Made by a program: the position numbers and the translations under genes
In this document: piece after piece, positions 1,504 through 28,069 of the stretch
Numbering within the stretch: position 1 is the stretch's first letter
How the letters are laid out: each line of letters opens with the position of its first letter
NCBI GenBank assembly: GCA_028285415.1
Contig: JANQPF010000010.1
Location: forward strand, 62,001-126,000
Origin: Pseudomonadales bacterium
GTDB lineage: Bacteria > Pseudomonadota > Gammaproteobacteria > Pseudomonadales > Azotimanducaceae
Length of the DNA stretch: 64,000 bases
Reading direction: 5' to 3'
Notes under the pieces: model-generated
The model's input: the letters and a program-made list of their open reading frames with translations, nothing else
Told to the model about the DNA's origin: nothing
Databases searched by the model: none

Positions 1504-2778
1504 TTACCTCATATCAAAGGTGATGTGCAGGTGCGGCAGGTTGCGCAGAATGAAGCTCGGCTCAGCCTGCGGCGCGGGCGCACCTTCCGCCAGCCGTATG
1601 TTCTGCATCCGCTCCAGCAGCGCGGGAAATCCCAGGTTCAGCTCCTGGCGCGCCAAGGGGGCGCCGATGCAGTGATGTACCCCGGAACCGAACGCCAGCT
1701 GCATGCCCGCCTTTTCCCGGTGGATGTCGACGTCGTCGGGATTCGGGAACTGGCGCTCGTCGCGGTTCGCAGCGCCGTAGCGCAGCATGATGAAATCCCC
1801 GGCCTTGAGCGGATAGCCGCCGAGCTCGGTATCGCGGGTCACCAACCGCGGCAGGCCCTGAACCGGCGCTTCGATGCGCAGGGTTTCTTCGACGAACGTT
1901 TTGATGAGCTTCTCATTGCCCCGCAGCTCGTCCTGGAGATGAGGATGTTTGCACAGGAGCAACATGCCCCAGCCGAACGTGCTGGTGGTTGTTTCGTGAC
2001 CGGCCACCAGAAACTGATTGAGGATCGACAACGCTTCGCCGTGGGTCAGATGCCGGTTTTCTTCCTCGAGCTTGCTGGTGGCAAGGATGGTAATCATGTC
2101 GTTCTGCGGATCTTCCCGCCGTGCTTCGATCAGCCGCACGAGGAGCTTCTGCAGATCGAGCGCCAGCTGTGCGCGACGCAGCATCTCATCGGGTGGCAGA
2201 GGAGTCAGGCGTAAACCGCCAGCGGCGGCGGTTGCTCCGTCCTCGAACAAAGGTCGATCTTCCTCCGGAATGCCGAGTCTGTCGCCGATGATGCGCAGCG
2301 GGACCGGGAATGCGAACCCCTCCATGTAGTCGGACTCGCCCGATGCAACGTAGCGATCCGCGGCGGCGTCGATGATGGTTTGCACCTGATCCTGGCTCTT
2401 CTTGATTTCGCTGCCCGTGAAGAGCTGGCTCACCAGCGACCGGTACTTCGTATGCTCAGGTTCATCCAGGGTGAGCATTGTGGGCGGGATGGCAATCATT
2501 TCCTGCTCGATGGCCACCAGTTTCTCTTTGACCGCTTCGGGCGCTGCCTGCAGGACCACTTCACGCCCGGCGTTCAGGAAACCGTCGTATTTACTGGAGT
2601 AGGTTGTCGTGTCCTTGATGGCCTCCCGCACGAGGTCGTAGCGCGTGACGACGTGCAGATTGAGCTCTTTGGCGTGGAATACCGGCGCTTCATCACGCAG
2701 TCGCGCGTAGGCCTCGTAGGGATTGATGAGAGTGTCAATGGCAAAAATTTGCACGTCATCCAGAGATGCAGTGTTCAC
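1504..2778 (-). CDS. Cytochrome P450
   Basis: Soluble class I bacterial P450 monooxygenase, 424 residues. Visible hallmarks are the I-helix oxygen-activation motif AGHETT, the K-helix ExxR in EETLR, and the haem-cysteine loop FGSGVHHCIGAPLAR near the C-terminus. The substrate is unknown. The GTG start at 2778 is chosen because a GGAGGA ribosome site lies 6 nt upstream (2790-2785). An in-frame ATG at 2805 overlaps the apparent -10 box (AATAAT, 2809-2804) and is unlikely to be used. A ferredoxin partner is not adjacent; a ferredoxin-NADP reductase homologue lies far away near 17 kb. The acyltransferase gene follows on the same strand. A palindrome covers the promoter. Confidence 0.9.
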   Translation of the reverse strand: MNTASLDDVQIFAIDTLINPYEAYARLRDEAPVFHAKELNLHVVTRYDLVREAIKDTTTYSSKYDGFLNAGREVVLQAAPEAVKEKLVAIEQEMIAIPPTMLTLDEPEHTKYRSLVSQLFTGSEIKKSQDQVQTIIDAAADRYVASGESDYMEGFAFPVPLRIIGDRLGIPEEDRPLFEDGATAAAGGLRLTPLPPDEMLRRAQLALDLQKLLVRLIEARREDPQNDMITILATSKLEEENRHLTHGEALSILNQFLVAGHETTTSTFGWGMLLLCKHPHLQDELRGNEKLIKTFVEETLRIEAPVQGLPRLVTRDTELGGYPLKAGDFIMLRYGAANRDERQFPNPDDVDIHREKAGMQLAFGSGVHHCIGAPLARQELNLGFPALLERMQNIRLAEGAPAPQAEPSFILRNLPHLHITFDMR

Positions 2779-2814
2779 GCTGAGTCCTCCGTAGCAATAC
2801 CGCATTATTGCGAA

Positions 2815-2836
2815 AAATTGGAACGTGGTCCAATTT
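2815..2836. promoter_or_regulatory. Palindromic operator over the P450 promoter
   Basis: Perfect inverted repeat AAATTGGA / TCCAATTT (8-bp arms, 6-nt spacer). On the minus strand it covers the putative -35 (TTGGAC, 2833-2828) and part of the 18-nt spacer before the -10 AATAAT (2809-2804). Size and position fit a TetR-type repressor site controlling the P450 gene. No regulator gene is adjacent, so the cognate protein is unknown. Confidence 0.5.
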
Positions 2837-2859
2837 GCAGGCCTTCGCCTTTTGACGCT

Positions 2860-2881
2860 GGTTTTACGTCGGTTTTACTTC
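2860..2881 (+). promoter_or_regulatory. 11-bp tandem direct repeat upstream of the helix-hairpin-helix gene
   Basis: Two head-to-tail copies of an 11-mer, GGTTTTACGTC and GGTTTTACTTC, identical at 10 of 11 positions. One helical turn between copies is the arrangement bound by OmpR/PhoB-family regulators. A possible -10 (TAGTAT, 2900-2905) follows, and the gene starts at 2960. It is not a Pho box by sequence. Confidence 0.35.
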
Positions 2882-2959
2882 CCCATAGCGGAGCTGGTCT
2901 AGTATTCTGCCCCGGATCTTACGGAGATCTATCAACAACAATGAGCTATGGAGGCACAC

Positions 2960-3364
2960 ATGACCAGTCTTACCACGATTGAGGGGATCGGGCCGGTATT
3001 CGAAGAGAAGCTGAACGCCGCGGGCATTACCAGCTGTGAAGAGCTGCTGACGCGGGGCGCAACGAAGCAGGGGCGGGAAGACATTGTGAACGCGTCCGGC
3101 ATCGATGCATCACGGATACTGCGCTTCGTCAATCACGCGGATCTCTGCCGTATCAAAGGCGTTGGCGGTGAGTATTCGGAGCTGCTCGAGGCTGCCGGAG
3201 TGGATTCCGTACCGGAGCTCGCTCAGCGGAATGCTGCAAACCTCGCCGCAAAAATGGCTGAAGTGAATGAAGCCAAGAGTCTCGTTCGGCAAGTGCCGTC
3301 TGAAACCAGCGTTGCCGGCTGGGTCGAAGAGGCGAAAAGCCTGCCGCGGGTGGTCACTCACTGA
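2960..3364 (+). CDS. Helix-hairpin-helix protein, DUF4332-like
   Basis: Cytoplasmic protein of 134 residues built from two helix-hairpin-helix-type modules: IEGIGPVFEEKLNAAGI at the N-terminus and a second one around IKGVGGEYSELLEAAGV. The glycine-rich hairpins (EGIGP, KGVGGE) are the usual non-specific nucleic-acid-binding turns, and the double arrangement matches DUF4332. The exact role of this family is not established. The ATG at 2960 is preferred over an in-frame ATG at 2948 because GGAGG (2950-2954) sits 5 nt before it. The gene is apparently monocistronic and convergent with the next minus-strand gene. Confidence 0.75.
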   Translation: MTSLTTIEGIGPVFEEKLNAAGITSCEELLTRGATKQGREDIVNASGIDASRILRFVNHADLCRIKGVGGEYSELLEAAGVDSVPELAQRNAANLAAKMAEVNEAKSLVRQVPSETSVAGWVEEAKSLPRVVTH

Positions 3365-3404
3365 CGATAACTCCAGAGTTGCCTCGGCCGGCTTAGCTGT
3401 TCTA

Positions 3405-3875
3405 TCAGGAAGCGGTCGGGGCCGCTTCATCTTCTTCTGTATCGTTTTCCTCTGCGTCGTTGTCGGAGCTCGCGAGTTCCAGCAGCGTGAGTAGGATCCT
3501 CCGAAACGCCTCCGGGGACAGCATCTCGTTGTCGTCGCCAACTTCCAAACCGTCGATCCCGGCCAACTGGTCCACCTTGATCTGGCCGCCTTGCAACATT
3601 TCGTGAACAACGTGATCGTAGTTGTTTTCCTGCTGATCTGAAAACGAGTCCCGCCTCAGCTCTGCGGCGATGGCTCGCAGCTCACCAATGTCACGCTTGT
3701 TCAGCGCGTTGGTCATGGCGGCCAGTTCCACCAGATCGGAGCCGAGCACGGCGTTGACATGGTGCATGTAGCCCTTCAGCAGTTTGCGGTAGCCCATTGC
3801 TCTCAGGTCGCAGCCGTAATTGAGTGCAGGAAAGCTAACCACGGTATTTGACATTTTCGTGACAGGTCTATTCAC
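3405..3875 (-). CDS. Hypothetical protein with acidic tail
   Basis: I do not recognise this 156-residue protein. It is predicted cytoplasmic, mostly helical in composition, with no signal peptide or membrane segment. The C-terminus is a strongly acidic low-complexity tail rich in D, E and N. The listed start is a GTG; an in-frame ATG seven codons later (3854) is an alternative, and neither has a clear ribosome site. It is transcribed away from the Pho-box promoter of the neighbouring lipoprotein gene. Confidence 0.55.
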   Translation of the reverse strand: MNRPVTKMSNTVVSFPALNYGCDLRAMGYRKLLKGYMHHVNAVLGSDLVELAAMTNALNKRDIGELRAIAAELRRDSFSDQQENNYDHVVHEMLQGGQIKVDQLAGIDGLEVGDDNEMLSPEAFRRILLTLLELASSDNDAEENDTEEDEAAPTAS

Positions 3876-17939: not shown

Positions 17940-18512
17940 TTACCAGGAAGCGCTGGCTGGTTCGCCTTTGATGGGTCCGGCGAGATCGTCGGTCACCCAG
18001 CCGCCGTAGAAGCCGCCCGGTTGCGACCGCGCCTGCTCACCATCGACGCGGCACTCGAGGCGGCCGGGATAGAAGCTCACCCAGAGATAGAGATCGAGGA
18101 AGGCGGGAAACATCCGCGCGTAACGCCAACCCGCGTCTGCGACACCTTCGACTGAACAGCTTTGAGCCACGCCTTTCCACTCACACACCGAGTTCATCTC
18201 ACCCCAGCTGAGCTCGGCAACCACGTCTTCGGGCGGGAAGTAGTAGGTGGGCGCACCGGCGGTTTCCAGCACCCGCACGCCGCGACGGGTTTCTGCAATC
18301 AGCGTCTCGCCAAGGTAGACCGTCAGCTGTTGGGCGCACGGCAGCATCGCCGGCGGTCGAGGAAAATCCCACACCGACACCTGGTTCGGTCCTGGTGAGT
18401 CGGCAAAATCCGGACGGGAGGTGCCGTTGAACTGCCAGCGGCGGCGCGCTTCGAGAATGTGCTCCGGCTCGGGCAGGACCGGGATGCGATCGATGTCGGG
18501 TTTGTCAGTCAT
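17940..18512 (-). CDS. DUF427 family protein
   Basis: Cytoplasmic protein of 190 residues with a DUF427 fold: the segment VYLGETLIAETRRGVRVLETAGAPTYYFPPEDV is diagnostic, followed by CEWKGVAQ and the late WVSFYPGRLECRVDG strand. Conserved Tyr, Pro and Glu residues of the barrel are present. The biochemical role of the family is not established. The start codon at 18512 is divergent from the AhpD-like operon, leaving a 70-nt shared control region. Confidence 0.8.
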   Translation of the reverse strand: MTDKPDIDRIPVLPEPEHILEARRRWQFNGTSRPDFADSPGPNQVSVWDFPRPPAMLPCAQQLTVYLGETLIAETRRGVRVLETAGAPTYYFPPEDVVAELSWGEMNSVCEWKGVAQSCSVEGVADAGWRYARMFPAFLDLYLWVSFYPGRLECRVDGEQARSQPGGFYGGWVTDDLAGPIKGEPASASW

Positions 18513-18582
18513 GGCGTTAGATTGACAGAGATTGCACCGTCCGCCCAGTCATGGTTTGCTCTCCTGCCTGGGAGGAACAGAG

Positions 18583-19068
18583 ATGCAGAAACTCATCGCG
18601 GCATTGCCTGCGGAATCCGAGCTCGAAGGGATGCTTGCGCATCGGCCCGAGCTGCAGGTGCGTTACCGGGCGTTCATGCAGAGCGTGCGCGGGGACGGTA
18701 ACCTGCCGCCACGCCTGCTCGAGCTCTGCCGCGTGCGGGTTGCCCAGATTCACGATTGTGCTGCTGAGCTTGCGCTCAGCGATGCGGCGGCACCGCTGAC
18801 TGCGGCGGAGATAGATCAGCTTGCAGCCGGCCGGCTCGGCGACTTCAGCGATGCAGAGCAGGCGGCGCTTGCCATTGCCGAGTTGTTGCCCTACGCCCAC
18901 CACCAGCTCGATGATGCGGCGGTCAAGCGGGCTGATGAGCTGCTCGGTCACGCCGGCTGCGTGGCTCTGCTGACGGCGCTTGCGTTTTTCGACGTGAACT
19001 GCCGTCTGAAGCTGACGCTCGGCGTCGAAGCCACAGCGCAATCGCTCTCAACAGATCACCTCGTTTAA
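18583..19068 (+). CDS. AhpD-like/carboxymuconolactone decarboxylase family protein (CxxE variant)
   Basis: Helical protein of 161 residues of the AhpD/CMD superfamily. The family core RVRVAQIHDCAAEL is present, but the usual CxxC is CAAE: only the first cysteine is kept, so a dithiol peroxidase or reductase cycle is not possible within one subunit. The ATG at 18583 follows GGGAGGA with a 6-nt spacer; an earlier in-frame ATG at 18532 lacks a ribosome site. The gene is first in an operon, and the next gene is a related protein with a UGA in place of the second cysteine codon. The two may form hetero-oligomers or have split roles. Confidence 0.75.
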   Translation: MQKLIAALPAESELEGMLAHRPELQVRYRAFMQSVRGDGNLPPRLLELCRVRVAQIHDCAAELALSDAAAPLTAAEIDQLAAGRLGDFSDAEQAALAIAELLPYAHHQLDDAAVKRADELLGHAGCVALLTALAFFDVNCRLKLTLGVEATAQSLSTDHLV

Positions 19069-19091
19069 CGACTGGCCCGGGAGATGTCCTG

Positions 19092-19604
19092 ATGTCTACT
19101 GAACCTAGAATCCCTTCGGCCGTGCCCGGACAGGCGGAAGATTTCGCCACGGTCACCGCGCATACGCCGGAGACGATCACGCGGTTTTTTGATCTCTACG
19201 CCGAGTTCTGGCAACGCGGTGTGGTACCGCCGGAGCTCAAAGAGCTGACGCGCCTGCGCAACGCGCGCATCACGGATTGTGGTTACTGAAAAAACGTGCG
19301 TTTCGATTCTGCCCGTGTGGCAGGACTGGATGAGGACAAAGCCGCGCTCGTGACGGACGGCTACGAGGCGCGACTAGCCGCGACGGAGGTGGACGCCTTG
19401 CGGCTGACCGACGAGATCATCGGTGTTCCCGGGCGCCTCGGCGATGACGACATCGCGCGGCTCCGCGCACGCTTCAGCCCGGCGGAGCTGGTTGAGCTCA
19501 GCCTTGGCGTTGGTCTCTTTCTGGGTATGTCGAAGGTGCTGATTACGCTCGGTCTCGAGCCGCAGGACATGCCGGTGACGGTTATTCCGACGCCGGGGAG
19601 TTGA
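19092..19604 (+). CDS. AhpD-like selenoprotein candidate (CGYU, UGA at codon 66)
   Basis: Reads as one 170-residue AhpD/CMD-family protein if the in-frame TGA at 19287-19289 is selenocysteine. The context is RNARITDCGY-U-KNVRFDSARVAGL: the residue at the TGA is the second Cys of the family's CxxC redox motif (Cys63, Sec66). Downstream the frame is open to a normal family C-terminus with no other lesion. A bacterial SECIS-like hairpin follows (19307-19325). GGGAG precedes the ATG. The gene is 23 nt after its paralogue, and its final stop overlaps the GGT start, so coupling needs read-through. Likely role: thiol peroxidase or disulfide reductase. The alternative is a nonsense mutation or a sequencing error from TGC/TGT. 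Confidence 0.75.
19307..19325 (+). promoter_or_regulatory. Bacterial SECIS-like hairpin
   Basis: Seven-pair stem (19307-19313 with 19319-19325, one U-G pair) closed by the 5-nt loop CGUGU. There are 24 nt between the UGA and the loop, and a G occupies the second loop position. These agree with the published bacterial SECIS model (loop 16-37 nt from UGA, G within the first two loop bases, upper stem of at least 4 bp). The hairpin lies within the coding frame, as in bacteria. Confidence 0.65.
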
Positions 19605-21169
19605 TGTACGACCCGGGTCAACCATATCCCTCTCAGCGCTCACCCGTAGCGGCGTCCAACGTCGTTGCTACGTCTCAGCCGTTGGCGACGCAGGCGGGTA
19701 TTGCTGCACTGCAACGGGGCGGCAACGCCGTGGATGCAGCACTTGCCGCCGCCATTACGCTGACGGTGGTCGAACCCAACAACAACGGGGTGGGCAGTGA
19801 CGCGTTCTGTCTGCTGTGGGATGGCGACGCGCTCGTTGGTCTGAATGCCTCCGGCCGCTCGCCGCGGGGATGGGACCTCGAGCGCTTTGCCGGCCGCCAG
19901 CAGATGCCAAGCAAAGGCTGGGATGCGGTCACCGTACCGGGTGCGGTCAGCGCCTGGACGGCGCTGTCTCAACGCTACGGCAAACTGCCGTTCACCGACC
20001 TGTTCGAATCTGCTGTGCATTACGCGCGCGAAGGGTTCCAGGTGGGTCCGAAATCCGCGTTTTACTGGCAGGCTCTGGCGGCGTATTACGCTGAGTTCGA
20101 TGAGTTTGCGCGGCACTTCCTGCCGGCGCCGCAAGCGGGGGATCGGGTGCTCCGTCCGGAGCTGGCGGCGACGCTCGAGCGCATTGCCGCGAGCGACGGA
20201 CTGGACTTCTACAGTGGCGAGCTTGCGCAGCGGATTGATGCCGCAGCCCGCGAGGCGGGTGGTGCGCTGCGCTTCGAAGATCTCAGAGATCATGAGCCGG
20301 AGTGGGTGACTCCCGTCGCGCAGGACTACCACAACGTCTGCCTGCACGAGATACCGCCGAACGGGCAGGGACTTGCCGCACAAATTGCGCTTGGCATCCT
20401 CGCGCATCTGGAAACCGCGCCGGTGGACTCTACAGAATGGCTGCACCAGCAGATTGAAGCCATGAAAATTGCGGTGCGTGCGGCGCAGGATCACATTGCG
20501 GACGCGGGTGCCATGCAGACGTCGATAGAAGCGCTGCTGGATGCCGAATCTCTGGCCCGGGCAGCGGCGGCTATCGGCGACAGCGCCAGCACGGCGGCAC
20601 CGGTTGCCTTGCCGACGAGTCCGGATACCGTCTATCTCTGCGCCGCGGATGCTTCCGGCATGATGATTTCGTACATCCAGTCGAACTATTTTGCGTTTGG
20701 CTCGGGCGTGGTGATTCCGGGTACCGGCATTGCCATGCAGAACCGCGGCAGCGGATTTGTCCTGGAGCCGGGACATCCCAACTGCGTGGCGCCCGGGAAG
20801 CGGCCGTTCCATACCATCATCCCCGGCTTCGTCACGGCTGACGGCGCCCCCCTTCTGAGCTTTGGTGTGATGGGCGGGCACATGCAGCATCAGGGTCACG
20901 TGCAGATGGTCACCCGCATGTTCGATCACGGACAGAACCCGCAGACGGCAAGTGATGCACCCCGCTGGCACGTCTACCCGGATTTCAGCGTGGCGTTGGA
21001 ACGCGGATTCGACTCGGAAGTTGTCGATGCGCTACGGGCGCGCGGCCACGACGTCAAAACCGACGCGCCGGAAAGCACCTTCGGTGGCGCGCAGCTCATC
21101 CTGAAAACGGCAGAGGGCTACGTTGCGGGCTCTGATCACCGTAAAGAGGGGCATGCGGCCGGTTTTTGA
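19604..21169 (+). CDS. Gamma-glutamyltranspeptidase family protein
   Basis: Ntn-hydrolase of 521 residues related to gamma-glutamyltransferase (glutathione hydrolase). The N-terminal region GNAVDAALAAAITLTVVEPNNNGVGSD and the late SxxxxMPG-equivalent block FVLEPGHPN are visible. The precursor cleavage/nucleophile position is the Thr in SPDTVYLCAADASG. No signal peptide is seen, so this is probably a cytoplasmic homologue that may act on another gamma-glutamyl or amide substrate. The ATG at 19604 overlaps the stop of the selenoprotein candidate (TGATG), which implies translational coupling. Its position between AhpD-like and rhodanese genes points to thiol metabolism, which is an inference. 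Confidence 0.85.
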   Translation: MYDPGQPYPSQRSPVAASNVVATSQPLATQAGIAALQRGGNAVDAALAAAITLTVVEPNNNGVGSDAFCLLWDGDALVGLNASGRSPRGWDLERFAGRQQMPSKGWDAVTVPGAVSAWTALSQRYGKLPFTDLFESAVHYAREGFQVGPKSAFYWQALAAYYAEFDEFARHFLPAPQAGDRVLRPELAATLERIAASDGLDFYSGELAQRIDAAAREAGGALRFEDLRDHEPEWVTPVAQDYHNVCLHEIPPNGQGLAAQIALGILAHLETAPVDSTEWLHQQIEAMKIAVRAAQDHIADAGAMQTSIEALLDAESLARAAAAIGDSASTAAPVALPTSPDTVYLCAADASGMMISYIQSNYFAFGSGVVIPGTGIAMQNRGSGFVLEPGHPNCVAPGKRPFHTIIPGFVTADGAPLLSFGVMGGHMQHQGHVQMVTRMFDHGQNPQTASDAPRWHVYPDFSVALERGFDSEVVDALRARGHDVKTDAPESTFGGAQLILKTAEGYVAGSDHRKEGHAAGF

Positions 21170-21195
21170 GCTTTGCAACTGAACGGAGAGCACCC

Positions 21196-21627
21196 ATGGC
21201 AATCAAGAATGTCTTCGAAGAAACCAGCGCGCTGAAAGCGCGCATTGAAAACCTGAGCGTTGATGACCTCCAAGCTGAGATGGCCGCTGGCGCAGATCCT
21301 TTGCTGGTGGATCTCAGGGAGATTCAGGAAGTGGTCGACCTCGGCACCATCCCCGGCGCGAAACACGTGCCGCGCGGGATGCTCGAATTCTGGGCGGATC
21401 CCGCAAGTCCCTACTACCGGGATTACTTCACCGAAGAGCGTCGCATCGTGGTCTTCTGCGCTGGTGGCGGGCGGTCTGTGTATGCAACGCTTGCGCTCGA
21501 GGACATGGGTTTCAAAAATGTGGCGCACCTGGAAGCGGGCTTCAACGGCTGGAAGAAAGCGGGCGGAGAGGTAGAGGACGTTGCCGCCACCAGCCGGTGG
21601 GTGCGCCGGGAAAAGCCACAAGCCTGA
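21196..21627 (+). CDS. Rhodanese-like sulfurtransferase
   Basis: Single-domain rhodanese of 143 residues. The substrate loop CAGGGRS carries the active-site cysteine that accepts sulfane sulfur as a persulfide. Upstream are the CH2A-like block LLVDLREIQEV and the IPGAKHVPRGMLEF segment, and the C-terminus has the EAGFNGWKKAGGEV block. The ATG at 21196 follows GGAGAG with a 5-nt gap; an upstream in-frame codon at 21166 would overlap the previous gene. It is third downstream of the AhpD-like pair and probably part of the same operon (26-nt gap). Rhodaneses can also handle selenium, which is of interest next to a putative selenoprotein. Confidence 0.88.
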   Translation: MAIKNVFEETSALKARIENLSVDDLQAEMAAGADPLLVDLREIQEVVDLGTIPGAKHVPRGMLEFWADPASPYYRDYFTEERRIVVFCAGGGRSVYATLALEDMGFKNVAHLEAGFNGWKKAGGEVEDVAATSRWVRREKPQA

Positions 21628-21660
21628 CATCACAACTACGCACGAGGAGGGGTAAACGCT

Positions 21661-22692
21661 ATGGACTTTGACATGATGGTCGGGGGGCTCACGTGGAAGG
21701 ACAGCGCGGCGTTGGCGGGCCGGCTCCAGGAAGCGGGCTTCTCGGGCATGCTCTTTACCGAAACCGGCACGACACCGTGGATGTCCATCGCGGCCGCCGC
21801 AATGGCGGCGCCCAAGCTCGAATTCTCGACCGGCATTGCCGTTGCCTTTCCGCGCAGCCCCATGATCTCGGCCCAGATTGCCTGGGAGCTTGCCGCCAAT
21901 ACAGGTGGTCGCTTCCGCCTGGGGCTCGGCAGTCAGGTCAAAGGTCATGTCGTGCGGCGGTACAGCTCAACCTTCGACAAGCCTGCGCCGCAGATGCGGG
22001 ACTATGTGGGCGCGGTGCAGGCGTGCCTGCGGGCGTTCCGTGGTGAAGAAAAGCTCCACCACGAGGGCCCCTACTACAACCTCAGCTACCTGCCTGCTCA
22101 GTGGGCACCGATGCGCCACGACTACGAAGACGTGAAGCTCGACATCTCGGCAGTGGGTCCGCACATGTGCCGTCTCGCCGGTGAGCTCTGTGACGGCATC
22201 CACGTGCACCCCATGCATTCGATGCATTACATTGCCAACCGGCTGCAGCCGGCGGTTGCCGAAGGGGCGGCCAAAGCGGGTCGGGACGCCGCTGAAATTG
22301 ATCTCATCGTACCCGTATTCGCGGTGCCGGGAGACAGCCCCGAGGCCCGCGAAAAACTCCTGCAGCGCGCGAGGACGCAGATTGCGTTTTACGGCTCCAC
22401 ACCGAACTACGCGTTTCAGTTCGACGATCTGGGCTTTGCCGGGACCACAGCGCGCCTTGGCGAGTTGATGAAAGCGGGTGACATGGCCGGCATGGCGGAG
22501 ACGATTTCGGAGGAGATGCTCGAGCACTTTGCGGTCATTGCCACGTGGGATGATCTCGCGGACAAGCTCCGTGATCGCTATCACGGCGTGGCCAGCCGGC
22601 TCGTCATGTACCTGACCGCCGACGATATCCGGCGCGCACCCGAAAACCTGGCGCGCTGGGGAGAAATTGCGCAAGCTGTGCGAGCCGCCTGA
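21661..22692 (+). CDS. LLM-class flavin-dependent oxidoreductase, TIGR03617-like
   Basis: Luciferase-like alpha/beta-barrel protein of 343 residues. The blocks FSGMLFTETGTTPWMSIAAAAM, FSTGIAVAFPRSPMISAQIAWELA and GGRFRLGLGSQV are those of the F420-type LLM subfamily, where FMN or F420 binds at the barrel C-terminal side. The substrate is unknown. GAGGAGG precedes the ATG. It follows the rhodanese gene by 33 nt and probably belongs to the same operon. Two more LLM enzymes occur in the window (43.7 kb and the right end), but they are only distantly similar. Confidence 0.85.
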   Translation: MDFDMMVGGLTWKDSAALAGRLQEAGFSGMLFTETGTTPWMSIAAAAMAAPKLEFSTGIAVAFPRSPMISAQIAWELAANTGGRFRLGLGSQVKGHVVRRYSSTFDKPAPQMRDYVGAVQACLRAFRGEEKLHHEGPYYNLSYLPAQWAPMRHDYEDVKLDISAVGPHMCRLAGELCDGIHVHPMHSMHYIANRLQPAVAEGAAKAGRDAAEIDLIVPVFAVPGDSPEAREKLLQRARTQIAFYGSTPNYAFQFDDLGFAGTTARLGELMKAGDMAGMAETISEEMLEHFAVIATWDDLADKLRDRYHGVASRLVMYLTADDIRRAPENLARWGEIAQAVRAA

Positions 22693-23429: not shown

Positions 23430-24890
23430 ATGGAACTCCCGGCAACGCTGCTGACGAATCGGGATGACGCACCCTACTGGGATACCCAGGCGGTGCACGA
23501 GGTGGTACAGACGGAGGGCAAAACCCTCCGTTCCACCGAACGGGCGCTCGAAAAAGCGAGCTGGCTGCCGGAGGCGCTCACGCTGGCAGACCTGCGTGAC
23601 GAGGAGGGCCGCCCCCTCATCAGCCTGGTTGCGGCTAACCTCGAAGCGCAAAGCAAGCGCAAGCGCGTCACCAATCTATACGTACAGTCGAACACGCTCG
23701 ATGACGGTCGGGTACTGCTGATGGCCAACGACGGCCGTGGCGGGCGCCGCTGGCTGTTTCTCGAGGCGCTGAATCTCGAGACCCTGGCGGCAGGCGTTGA
23801 TGGGCTCTGCGGCGACAAAGATGCATTGCTGTGGCCGCACGGTGAGATCACTGCGCTCTTTCGGAGCTGGCAGCTGGATGACAACGAAATCGTCAAGATG
23901 CTGCCATCCGGCACCAAGGTGACGCTCGCGCTGCCGGCATATCGCGCGACGCTGACCCTTGCCGCTTATCCTGACAGTCCGCCGCATCCGGGTGAGATCA
24001 CACACCTCGATCGCCTCGAGGCCGAAGCCATTCATATCATGCGCGAGGTGGTTGCCCAGGCGGAAAATCCGGTCATGCTCTACAGCGTCGGTAAAGACAG
24101 TTCCGTGATGCTGCATCTGGCACGCAAAGCGTTCTATCCGAGCCCGCCGCCGTTTCCGCTCATGCACATCGACACACGCTGGAAGTTCCAGGCGATGTAC
24201 GAGTTCCGCGATCAGATGGCCAGGGAGATCGGCATGGAGCTGATCGTGCATATCAATCCGGAGGGGGTCGAGAAAGACATGAATCCCTTCGATCACGGCA
24301 GCGCGCTGCATACCGACGTCATGAAAACTCAAGGCTTGAAGCAGGCGCTCGACAAGCACGGTTTCGACGTGGCCTTTGGCGGCGCACGTCGCGACGAAGA
24401 AAAGAGCCGCGCCAAGGAGCGCGTGTTCTCGTTTCGTAACGAAGCGCACCGCTGGGATCCCAAGAATCAGCGCCCGGAACTGTGGAATCTCTACAACGGC
24501 TACAAGAATCCCGGCGAGAGCATACGCGTATTCCCGCTCTCCAACTGGACCGAACTCGATATCTGGCAGTACATCTACCGCGAGCACATTCCGATCGTGC
24601 CGCTCTACTTCGCCGCGGAGCGTGCGGTGGTGGAACGTGACGGCATGCTGATGATGGTTGATGACGATCGCATGCGCATGCTGCCCGATGAGGAGATCCA
24701 GATCCGTCGTGTACGTTTCCGTACCCTGGGTTGTTATCCGTTGACGGGTGCCATCGATTCAAGCGCTGACAACCTGTCTTCCATTGTGCTCGAGCTTCTG
24801 CAGAGCCGTACGAGCGAAAGGCAGGGACGGGCGATCGACACGGACAGCGCCGGATCCATGGAGAAGAAGAAGCAGGAGGGCTATTTCTAA
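23430..24890 (+). CDS. cysD: Sulfate adenylyltransferase subunit 2 with ~190-residue N-terminal extension
   Basis: CysD is the ATP-PPase subunit that makes APS from sulfate and ATP with CysN. From about residue 190 the protein is a full Cys[13 protein letters not shown]-loop [54 protein letters not shown], and the ending [11 protein letters not shown]. The first ~190 residues are extra compared with the usual ~300-residue enzyme. They contain a beta-rich stretch ([27 protein letters not shown]) that I do not recognise. The fusion is in one open frame, and no start codon with a ribosome site is seen at the CysD boundary. The substrate-side motif reads HIDTRWKF instead of the common HVDTGWKF. 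The stop overlaps the cysNC start by one base. Confidence 0.9.
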
Positions 24891-26779
24891 TGAGTGAAGC
24901 AGCACTGAGCCTCGCGGAGCTCGAATCCCGCGTCCAGACCTACATCGACACGCAGGCCAATCTCGACCTTCTGCGGTTCATCACCTGTGGCAGCGTCGAC
25001 GACGGGAAAAGCACGCTGATTGGACGCATGCTCTACGAAGCGCAGCTGGTCTTCGAGGATCAGGTGGCGTCGTTGCAGCAGGATTCCAAACGGCAGGGCA
25101 CCCAGGGAGGAGACATCGACTTTGCGCTTCTCGTCGACGGGCTCGCCGCGGAACGGGAACAGGGCATCACCATTGATGTTGCCTATCGCTTTTTCAGCAC
25201 AGATCACCGGAAGTTCATCGTCGCGGACACCCCCGGGCACGAGCAGTACACGCGCAACATGGTAACGGGCGCTTCCACGGCGGACGTGGCGGTGATCCTG
25301 GTTGATGCGGTGAACGGTCTCCTCACGCAGACCCGGCGCCACTCATTCATTACCTCCCTGCTTGGCATCAAGCACGTCGTGCTTGCCGTCAACAAGATGG
25401 ACCTCGTCGACTATGACAAAGCCGTCTTCGACGAAATTGTGCGCGACTATGGCGTCTTTGCCGAGCAGCTCAGCTTTGAAACGATCACCCCCATACCCTT
25501 GTCGGCGTTGAAAGGCGACAACGTGATCGATCGATCCGCGCATACCTCGTGGTACCAGGGGCCGACGCTGCTCGGCTATCTGGAGACGGTGAATATTCAC
25601 GGCCACGATGACGAGGCGTCGTTCCGCTTTCCGGTGCAATGGGTGAACCGCCCGAACGCGGACTTCCGCGGCTTCGCCGGTACCGTGGTTGCAGGCTCGG
25701 TCAGTCGCGGAGAGGAAGTTCGCATCCTGCCCTCCGGAGAGGTTGCCCGCGTCAAAGACATCGTCCTCTATCACGACAATCTCGACGCCGCGCATGCCGA
25801 TCAGGCGGTCACGCTGACGCTCGATCGGGAAGTGGATGCGTCGCGCGGCGATGTCATCGTGGCTGCCGACGCGCCTTGTGAGGTGTCTGATCAGTTCGAC
25901 GCGTCGCTCGTCTGGATGGATCAGGAAGAGGGTTACATCGGCCGCAGCTACTGGTTGATGATGGGGACGACGCGCATCAACGCCACCATTTCCGACATCA
26001 AGTTCAAGTACAACATCAACACGCTGGATCAGCTCTCAGCCCGCGGCTTCGAGCTGAACGACATTGGTCGCATAACGCTCAGTTTCGACCGGCCCGTGCC
26101 GTTCGAAAGCTATCAGGATTGCAAGGGCCTCGGCTCGTTTGTCCTGGTCGACAGATATACGCATCACACCGTTGGCGCCGGCATGATCAACTACGCGCTA
26201 CGCCGCGCCAAGAACATTCACCGTCACTCGCATGAGGTGGACAAAGCGGCACGTGAGCGTCTGAACGGACACAAAGGTAAAGTGCTGTGGATGACCGGGT
26301 TGAGCGGTTCCGGCAAGTCGAGCGTTGCCAACGCGGTGGAGCTTGCGTTGCACAACCGCGGCGTGCACACGTTCATCCTCGACGGTGACAACGTGCGCCA
26401 CGGACTCAACAAAGACCTTGGCTTCACGGACGCCGACCGGGTGGAAAACATCCGTCGAACGGCTGAGGTTGCGAAGCTCATGGTTGATGCCGGACTTGTG
26501 GTCATCACGGCGTTCATATCCCCGTTCCGCTCGGAGCGTGATATGGCCCGGGCGCTTTTCGCGGAGGATGAGTTCGTCGAGATTTTCCTCGACGTCCCCC
26601 TGGACGTTGCCGAGGAACGCGATCCCAAGGGTTTGTACAAGAAGGCCCGCCGCGGTGAGCTTCCGCACTTCACGGGCATCGACTCGCCCTACGAAGCGCC
26701 GGAGACGGCTGAACTGCGTTTGCCCACGGCGGAGCTCAGCATCGAAGAGTGCGTGGCGAAGGTACTCGAACATGTCTGA
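24890..26779 (+). CDS. cysNC: Bifunctional sulfate adenylyltransferase subunit 1 / adenylylsulfate kinase
   Basis: 629-residue fusion. The N-terminal GTPase (CysN) couples GTP hydrolysis to APS formation and has P-loop [21 protein letters not shown] (G3) and NKMD (G4). The C-terminal APS kinase (CysC) phosphorylates APS to PAPS and has Walker [25 protein letters not shown], and the lid segment [20 protein letters not shown]. Both halves have normal lengths and intact motifs. It is translationally coupled to cysD by a TAATG overlap and overlaps the DUF2061 start by 8 nt. Output is PAPS for assimilatory sulfate reduction or sulfation; no cysH or sulfotransferase gene lies in the window. Confidence 0.95.
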
Positions 26780-27022: not shown

Positions 27023-28069
27023 ATGGCAGCAACAACCGATGATGCGCTGGATCTCGTCGCCATGGACGCGCTGACGCGCGTCCATCACGCCTGGTTTCTC
27101 GGCTTGCAGCTCATGGTGTCTACCCGTCTCGGCCGTGAGGTCATGGGCCAGTGGATGTTCCGGCTGTTCCGCCGCCAGCATGAGGAGAAGTTCCTGGCGA
27201 GCTTCTCGAAGCTGGGTCTGGACGATCTGCCGCACGCCGTTGCCTGCGCGAAGTACCACGTTCTCTCCAACGGTGTGGGTGGCGTGCCGGTCGAGTACAT
27301 GTACGAGAGTGACAGCAAAGCCTGGGTGCGCTTCCGTTATCCGCGCTGGATGTACCACGGCCCGACGATCTGCGGCGTGACCGAAGAAGTCAGCCGGGGT
27401 TTCCTGGAAGGCTGGTACGGGCACAACGGCGTTTCACTCGGCAATCCGCGGCTGGGTTATGTCTGCGTGTCTGAGGACATGACGGGCGAGTTCGGACTTT
27501 GCGGTTACTTCAAAGAATACGACCACGACCTTGCGCCGGAAGAGCGCCTGCAGTTTGCCAAGGGCGAACCGCCGCCGCCGTATGATCCCGCGGCACAGCC
27601 TCAACCACCGGCTGAAGCTTGGAATGCCGCACGCCTGGCCAAAGCCAATCGGAATTATGCGCTCGAGTACCTGCGCAACGGTCTGGCGGAGCTTGCGGGG
27701 GTCGTCGGCACTGAAGAGACTGAGCAGCTTGCCGGTCTCGCCGCGCGGCTGATCGGGCTGCAGTACTACGCGGAGACGGCGTCGCTCCTGGAGATAGAAG
27801 ACAGCGGCGTGGCCTCCGCGGTCGAATATCTCGCGCGCCTCTTTCGGGCTTGTGGGGACGAGGTCGTCTGCACCGACGAAGGTGAGCATGCCGCGCTGGT
27901 GCAGAGCGGGCTGCGGGTGGTGCGCGGTCTCGACGCTGCCGAGCGTACGCTCTTTCTGGCCTGCTGGCGGGAACTCTGGGTGGGCGCGATGGCATCGCGA
28001 CGCACGCGGCTGGATCTGACTGTGGCATCGGCCGGCGAAGGTTTGCGCTGGAATTTGTCCATAAAATAG
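27023..28069 (+). CDS. Unknown protein downstream of cysNC
   Basis: Cytoplasmic protein of 348 residues that I do not place firmly. The first 200 residues (HHAWFLGLQLMVSTRLGREVMG; YRYPRWMYHG-like FRYPRWMYHGPTICG; GYFKEYDHDLAPEERLQFAKG) recall the L-2-amino-thiazoline-4-carboxylate hydrolase-like fold, which would fit a sulfur locus, but this is a weak resemblance. The C-terminal 150 residues, after a proline-rich linker (GEPPPPYDPAAQPQPPAE), look like a separate helical domain. An AGGAGGGGGCA ribosome site precedes the ATG, and the gap to DUF2061 is 26 nt, so it probably ends the cys operon. Confidence 0.6.
   Translation: MAATTDDALDLVAMDALTRVHHAWFLGLQLMVSTRLGREVMGQWMFRLFRRQHEEKFLASFSKLGLDDLPHAVACAKYHVLSNGVGGVPVEYMYESDSKAWVRFRYPRWMYHGPTICGVTEEVSRGFLEGWYGHNGVSLGNPRLGYVCVSEDMTGEFGLCGYFKEYDHDLAPEERLQFAKGEPPPPYDPAAQPQPPAEAWNAARLAKANRNYALEYLRNGLAELAGVVGTEETEQLAGLAARLIGLQYYAETASLLEIEDSGVASAVEYLARLFRACGDEVVCTDEGEHAALVQSGLRVVRGLDAAERTLFLACWRELWVGAMASRRTRLDLTVASAGEGLRWNLSIK

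Follow-up and report, generated by a model that had tools for sequence, protein, structure and literature searches.

A gene with an in-frame UGA that probably encodes an AhpD-like selenoprotein, paired with a CxxC-less paralogue, in a Pseudomonadales bacterium

The window, i.e., the whole stretch of 64,000 nucleotides analysed here from a Pseudomonadales bacterium, contains a gene (19092-19604) whose reading as a selenoprotein gene is supported by sequence comparison, and which almost certainly encodes one protein of 170 residues that belongs to the AhpD-like/CMD superfamily. The use of its internal UGA as a sense codon, the hairpin that follows it, the presence of the selenocysteine (Sec) machinery, the exchange between Cys and Sec, and the pairing with a neighbouring gene are all supported, and we infer the actual incorporation of Sec at UGA66. 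The best explanation as a whole, to which we assign a probability of about 85%, is a selenoprotein in which Sec would be inserted through the hairpin and SelB, would form a redox couple with a nearby Cys (C63/U66), and would act in a heteromer with the CMD paralogue encoded upstream. The features concerned are the following:

18583..19068, forward strand: CMD paralogue that lacks CxxC (the partner gene), separated from the selenoprotein gene by 23 nt; Pfam CMD 27.7 bits, with the scan begun at 18532
19092..19604, forward strand: putative AhpD-like selenoprotein gene, 170 residues, Sec66 in CGYU; Pfam CMD 27.5 bits vs. cut-off 23
19287..19289, forward strand: in-frame UGA, predicted selenocysteine codon 66; TGA in 16 of 17 distinct orthologues, Cys in 17 of 17 homologues outside the family
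19307..19325, forward strand: bacterial SECIS-type hairpin; 7-bp stem 19307-19313/19319-19325, loop CGUGU 19314-19318

The frame 19092-19604 on the forward strand has a single internal TGA (19287-19289, residue 66) before the terminal TGA at 19602-19604. The read-through protein (MSTEPRIPSA...DCGYUKNVRF...PTPGS) agrees with the first-pass annotation, which had placed the TGA at the second position of a CxxC motif, with the frame open from there to the end. That annotation had also anticipated an automated split into fragments of 65 and 102 residues, and these are the two pieces that mechanical ORF calling returned (65 aa, 19092-19289; 102 aa, 19296-19604). The read-through protein passes the Pfam gathering score of the CMD family, which places it within the CMD superfamily. 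It scores below the cut-offs of all four NCBIfam models listed for it; the peroxidase-related enzyme model TIGR01926 gave 26.5 bits against a curated cut-off of 81.8, and NF053654, the YciW-related (seleno)protein model, gave 23.5 bits against 310, so that by score the protein belongs to neither of these families. A plasmid search matched 13 records, all with less than 60% identity, and the ten listed share 28-35%.

The orthologues were collected from two sources. Among 97 genomes searched (that of the window and those of its kin), 45 contained some match and 12, the window's own included, a near-full-length one, and each of these 12 has exactly one internal TGA. A search of public genome contigs gave 10 loci, i.e., five sequences identical to five of the twelve and five new ones. 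The resulting set comprises 17 distinct sequences, the window's and 16 others sharing 61-72% identity with it, and they can be aligned over their full length. Codon 66 is TGA in 16 of the 17 and TGC in the remaining one (L051), and in none is it TAA or TAG. With the same TGA recurring in 16 distinct sequences, a sequencing error is very unlikely. The titled records are all MAGs, and some genes may thus be missing from them.

A profile of the 17 orthologues was then run against 390 genomes of the order (E up to 1e-25) and matched 19 of them: the window's own, the genome G351, and 17 outside the family, the latter 18 without a stop inside the match. The Sec column holds Cys in all the 17 homologues outside the family, as it does in the sole orthologue without TGA, so that the in-frame UGA is aligned with the Cys of the homologues, as the alignment proposed in the first-pass annotation was meant to reveal. 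Homologues with a residue other than Cys at this position, which that annotation would have counted against the selenoprotein, were absent among the proteins that have a CxxC; the partner paralogues, which are more distant CMD homologues, have E, A, Q, or yet another residue there, but in them the whole CxxC site is missing.

The hairpin had been described as lying 24 nt downstream of the TGA. Its 7-bp stem and its loop CGUGU are real, but the 24 nt are counted from the UGA to the apical loop, and the stem follows the UGA after 17 nt. With a loop of 5 nt, a stem of 7 bp, a spacing of 24 nt, and an energy of -8.3 kcal/mol, it fits the bacterial SECIS model as claimed, within the limits printed in a recent review (PMC13188914), which are also those applied in our bSECIS-type filter. 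By itself, the hairpin is weak evidence, and it is the comparison across orthologues that decides. The folding of 19287-19330, suggested earlier as a check, gave no support, since its energy is ordinary (z -0.68), and folding energy alone was rejected as evidence for the hairpin, with z values from -0.68 to 0.03 over three stretches. The filter, run on both strands of the window, was passed by 131 of 1980 TGA trinucleotides, and 99 of these 131 have hairpins at least as stable as this one, itself counted in. An Rfam search of 18500-20500 (E up to 1) returned no match, and a promoter and terminator scan of 18400-21700 found no promoter-like site and 4 terminator-like sites, vs. a shuffle mean of 2.5, and was thus uninformative.

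Across the 16 Sec forms, all 7 pairs of the stem are kept in each sequence (112 of 112 cells paired), and 14 cells, distributed in 3 of the 7 pairs, show changes on both sides. None of 500 shuffles reached the observed percentage paired, the count of cells changed on both sides, or the covariation score; two of the five covariation measures fell within the shuffles, namely the number of pairs with two-sided change (3; reached by 117 of 500) and that of further pair types (4; 500 of 500). When the partner columns were slid by one to three positions, 32 to 59% of the cells paired. Each of the three covarying pairs has a third codon position on either side, so the changes are synonymous, for instance TCT...GCA vs. 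TCC...GCG. Re-coded versions of the 16 Sec forms folded at least as stably in 4 to 58% of cases, and when codons were exchanged for synonymous ones at the frequencies used by the group, so that the protein stayed the same, all 7 pairs formed in 1 to 3%. Synonymous variation over codons 67-80 is 0.54 of that expected, vs. 0.94 for codons 1-65 and 83-170; the ten lowest of the 132 sliding stretches all begin at codons 66-75, and the Arg codon CGT over the loop is invariant in the 16 Sec forms.

The window's genome also encodes the machinery for Sec insertion. It has a tRNA-Sec (selC) that scores 73.6 bits, over the cut-off and in agreement with ARAGORN, and SelA (523.8 bits) and SelB (407.5 bits) are both above their cut-offs; the three genes lie side by side on contig C4. 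A SelD domain (TIGR00476, 268.2 bits vs. cut-off 125) forms the C-terminal part of a 720-residue fusion (L010:1402-3564, reverse strand), whose N-terminal part is a pyridine nucleotide-disulfide oxidoreductase domain (TIGR03169, 398 bits, over the cut-off). The fusion stays below the cut-off of TIGR04369, a model named fusion_not_SelD (454 vs. 700), and its SelD part contains a CxxC that reads CGGC. Ndh-SelD fusions are known, and all those described in the consulted part of PMC2398784 have a CxxC. Thus, selA, selB, selC, and selD, whose absence had been named as an argument against a selenoprotein, were all found.

SelB scores above the cut-off in 53 of the 97 genomes and in 11 of the 12 that have the Sec form, compared with 2 (G351 and G063) of 18 genomes with the Cys form, a comparison that is uneven in that it sets close genomes against distant ones. 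Co-occurrence with SelB is weak support within the window's family, because SelB is common there anyway. The orthologues L044 and L049-L052 are known from public contigs alone, and SelB was looked at for L051 only, via G351. Two observations go the other way. The genome G009, 96% complete and in about 520 contigs, carries the TGA form with neither SelB nor tRNA-Sec over the cut-off, a gap that is likely due to a missing contig, since selA, selB, and selC adjoin in the window's genome and the loss of one contig could explain it; and G351 and G063 have SelB, yet carry the Cys form. Beside the tRNA-Sec of L009 (3568-3660, reverse strand) lies an ORF (2229-3488, reverse strand) that by eye resembles a tyrosine-recombinase integrase and is so labelled only putatively; selC is a known integration site.

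The sole orthologue without TGA, L051, has TGC at codon 66, and its hairpin retains 3 of the 7 pairs, all of which are present in every one of the 16 Sec forms. It corresponds to L085 in G351 (the first 100 residues identical by test, the remainder by eye). In a maximum-likelihood tree of 34 proteins, L051 is nested among the Sec forms, and well-supported branches force two label changes. The simplest reading is that a single Cys-to-Sec change at the base of the family preceded a natural reversion to Cys in L051, whose hairpin would have decayed afterwards. The direction of the first change is the inferred part of this reading, because the tree is midpoint-rooted, for drawing only. The genome of L051 still has SelB, and thus loss of the machinery is not what drove the return to Cys.

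Two other explanations of the internal TGA have to be weighed against its reading as a Sec codon. The gene has one internal stop, its hairpin alone is not significant, and the filter that it passes is also passed by many other TGAs of the window (131 of 1980 in all), which would suit a pseudogene created by a nonsense mutation, or a TGC or TGT misread in sequencing; however, the same TGA occurs in 16 of 17 distinct orthologues, the half of the protein downstream of it is conserved as protein, and covariation and synonymous constraint are found directly after it, so we regard this explanation as having a negligible probability. Nor is it at all probable, though slightly less remote, that the TGA is a true stop between two proteins, the second of which would start at the GTG at 19296, with the hairpin serving translational coupling. 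This GTG lies 6 bases after the TGA and does open 102 codons, but no stop interrupts the match in any of the 17 Cys homologues outside the family, the 17 orthologues use TGA or TGC at this codon and never TAA or TAG, and the orthologue that has Cys has lost the hairpin.

The AlphaFold model of the selenoprotein (pLDDT 88.6, pTM 0.82) has an AhpD-like fold, its best matches in the PDB being the AhpD-like protein PA0269 of P. aeruginosa (7xw1, 2ijc), with TM scores of 0.64-0.68 by query length. PA0269 (2ijc, 2o4d, 7xw1) provides the best matches both in sequence and in fold, and its relay is formed by Glu36, Cys48, Tyr50, Cys51, and His55, according to PMC3141380. The counterparts by spacing in the selenoprotein are E51, C63, Y65, U66, and R70; i.e., the Glu and both Cys positions are found at matching distances and Tyr50 corresponds to residue 65, but Sec takes the place of the second Cys and Arg70 that of the relay His55. 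Among the 17 orthologues, E51, C63, and C/U66 are invariant, residue 65 is Tyr (Phe in 4), and Arg70 is present in all. The classical five-residue AhpD relay (Glu, Cys, His/Tyr, Cys, His), which PMC3141380 describes for PA0269 and for AhpD of M. tuberculosis, is thus incomplete here, and the classical AhpD reaction is not assured, because an invariant Arg occupies the position of the catalytic His.

In the mechanism that we propose, the hairpin located 18 to 36 nt beyond UGA66 would recruit SelB with Sec-tRNA(Sec), and Sec would take up the second position in a redox pair of the CxxC type (C63-G-Y-U66). The redox couple would then consist of Sec66 and Cys63: the selenol of Sec66 would attack a peroxide or a disulfide, Cys63 would resolve the intermediate as a selenenylsulfide, and a cellular thiol system would reduce the latter, all this in a heteromer with the upstream CMD paralogue. 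We expect the attacking role for Sec66 and the resolving one for Cys63; they could be reversed, since the single catalytic Cys of Sestrin2 is the first of the motif, as stated in PMC4674687. The chances that the reaction is of the peroxidase or thiol-disulfide type appear to us about even, and its substrate and reductant are assigned here only presumptively.

The partner protein, which the first-pass annotation had not mentioned, shares 24% identity with the selenoprotein and at the motif reads DCAAE, with a single Cys that is not conserved; in G018 and G027, the motif stretch is absent altogether. A relative of this partner adjoins the selenoprotein gene in 16 of the 17 orthologue loci, the window included, the exception being G042, in which a similar gene sits on another contig (L060). 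It is also found beside the Cys gene in all the 17 loci outside the family, which belong to six other families, with a weak match in one of them, L101 (E 0.005 in one search and 0.022 in another). Moreover, in G077, a partner-like domain and a CxxC domain are encoded in one open frame (L026:862-1929, forward strand), and in G089, one frame (L041:1444-2454, reverse strand) contains two CMD-like halves, the second with a CxxC. The latter is a looser case of fusion, with no match to the window's partner protein. When the fused pair was aligned with the single proteins, most rows fell on its first half. Given this widespread adjacency and the two halves joined in one ORF in two genomes, we propose that the selenoprotein and the upstream paralogue form a heteromer, which seems to us somewhat the better bet, with one subunit possibly active and the other structural or regulatory.

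The selenoprotein might instead be real but assemble with itself, the upstream CMD gene being a neighbour with a task of its own. This arrangement has a sizeable, if lesser, chance of being correct: AhpD-like PA0269 is apparently a homohexamer alone, according to PMC3141380, and the two genes lie apart in G042, but against it stand the conserved pairing (16 of 17 orthologue loci; all 17 Cys loci, in six other families) and the two genomes in which a single ORF holds two CMD-like halves. The true substrate, on the other hand, could be, rather than a peroxide, a small electrophile, halogenated or otherwise, by analogy with Bmp8. This debrominase of the AhpD fold appears among the sequence matches (6ohi) and the fold matches (6ohj, 6ohi), and the replacement of the AhpD His by Arg would be compatible with such a substrate. 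We deem this unlikely, since Bmp8 comes after the AhpD-like matches in both rankings (last of 7 by sequence, no higher than 27th by fold) and none of the neighbouring genes scanned suggests halogen chemistry.

These neighbouring genes follow the selenoprotein gene on the forward strand:

19604..21169, forward strand: gamma-glutamyltransferase (GGT)-like gene; PF01019 466 bits (scanned from 19601); its start shares one base with the selenoprotein stop
21196..21627, forward strand: rhodanese-domain gene; PF00581 66 bits (scanned from 21166)
21661..22692, forward strand: luciferase-like (LLM class) oxidoreductase gene; PF00296 183 bits; TIGR03617 301.5 vs. cut-off 278
23430-26779: two genes read as cysD and cysNC (putative labels)

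The overlap of the GGT start with the final stop (TGATG) had been noticed in the first-pass annotation, and indeed the ATG at 19604-19606 has one base in common with it. A GGT-like gene follows the selenoprotein gene in the window and in five other neighbourhoods (G006, G009, G018, G003, and G027). The order partner, selenoprotein, GGT-like, rhodanese, LLM oxidoreductase, putative cysD and cysNC is found in the window, G006, G009, and G018, with one extra ORF before the putative cysD and cysNC in the window, and G027 keeps the same row as far as the contig end, which falls within the LLM gene. The GGT gene is missing from the rows of G030 and G026, and the rhodanese and LLM genes from that of G003; the row was not seen in the remaining nine orthologue loci, several of which have short flanks. 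Since the gene row varies among loci, the core unit is the CMD pair.

Other possible selenoproteins of this kind were encountered along the way. The window's genome has a second AhpD-like gene (L053; G000:C2, match at 1027701-1028153) whose in-frame TGA falls in CFTU and precedes a hairpin of 8 bp with loop GGC, and CFTU relatives occur in many kin genomes (e.g., L027, L029, L031-L040, and L054-L057). The three of these proteins that were scanned (L053, L027, and L031) have NF053654 as their best NCBIfam match, below the cut-off. Further motif types with an in-frame TGA and a hairpin with loop GGC are CRYU (G050, G048) and CNYU (G014), at loci L058, L059, and L030, and the window's family seems rich in AhpD-like selenoproteins. 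The window was also scanned for further read-through with a looser hairpin filter (energy <= -7.0), which 18 of 194 open-flanked TGAs pass. The 17 other than UGA66 have no CxxU or UxxC in the short flanking stretch; a Cys directly precedes the TGA at 141 (forward strand), and a Cys stands two places after those at 27883 (forward strand), 43622 (reverse strand), and 37032 (reverse strand).

AhpD-like selenoproteins with a CxxU have been in print since 2005, so the kind is already known, and the first-pass annotation was right in pointing to the replacement of Cys by Sec in AhpD-like proteins from marine metagenomes. The Sargasso Sea data yielded 27 CxxU AhpD-like sequences and 4 with a CMD domain (PMC1088965), the GOS set comprised 299 sequences of AhpD-like 1 and 70 of AhpD-like 2 (pfam02627) (PMC2398784), and such AhpD-like/CMD selenoproteins are listed in a 2026 review (PMC13188914). 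They share with the protein described here the superfamily (COG2128/pfam02627), the CxxU, and a bacterial SECIS after the UGA, but a partner gene without CxxC is not described in the consulted parts of the three sources. Compared by description only, the window's group may fall inside the 'AhpD-like 2' or the 'CMD domain-containing' sets. The similarity to NF053654 and TIGR01926 is detectable, but lies far below their cut-offs.

No description of an AhpD-like selenoprotein paired with a CMD partner lacking CxxC was found in the parts of the literature searched, and the pairing is thus apparently undescribed. The nearest parallel is Sestrin2, which likewise has two AhpD-fold units, one redox-active and the other with its motif lost, although it is eukaryotic, forms one chain with the active unit first, and uses a single Cys rather than C..U (PMC4674687). 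Here, the two have a fold match in common, 2prr. Tentatively, and with some doubt, we suggest that these genes may encode a two-subunit bacterial selenoenzyme in which a Sec-containing AhpD-like subunit is obligately paired with a CxxC-less CMD-fold partner, split here and apparently fused elsewhere; it would be a bacterial counterpart of the active/inactive pair of Sestrin and, with Arg in place of the relay His, may act beyond simple hydroperoxides.

The selenoprotein group is clear and testable, and standard annotation would probably split or drop such genes, because ORF calling gives two pieces and no listed NCBIfam model passes. The pairing with a motif-less paralogue points to heteromeric AhpD-like enzymes in bacteria. 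Finally, L051 offers a natural experiment on what maintains a SECIS, and the history of the exchange can be followed in a single family: Cys outside it, Sec in all but one of the 17 orthologues, and a single reversion to Cys.
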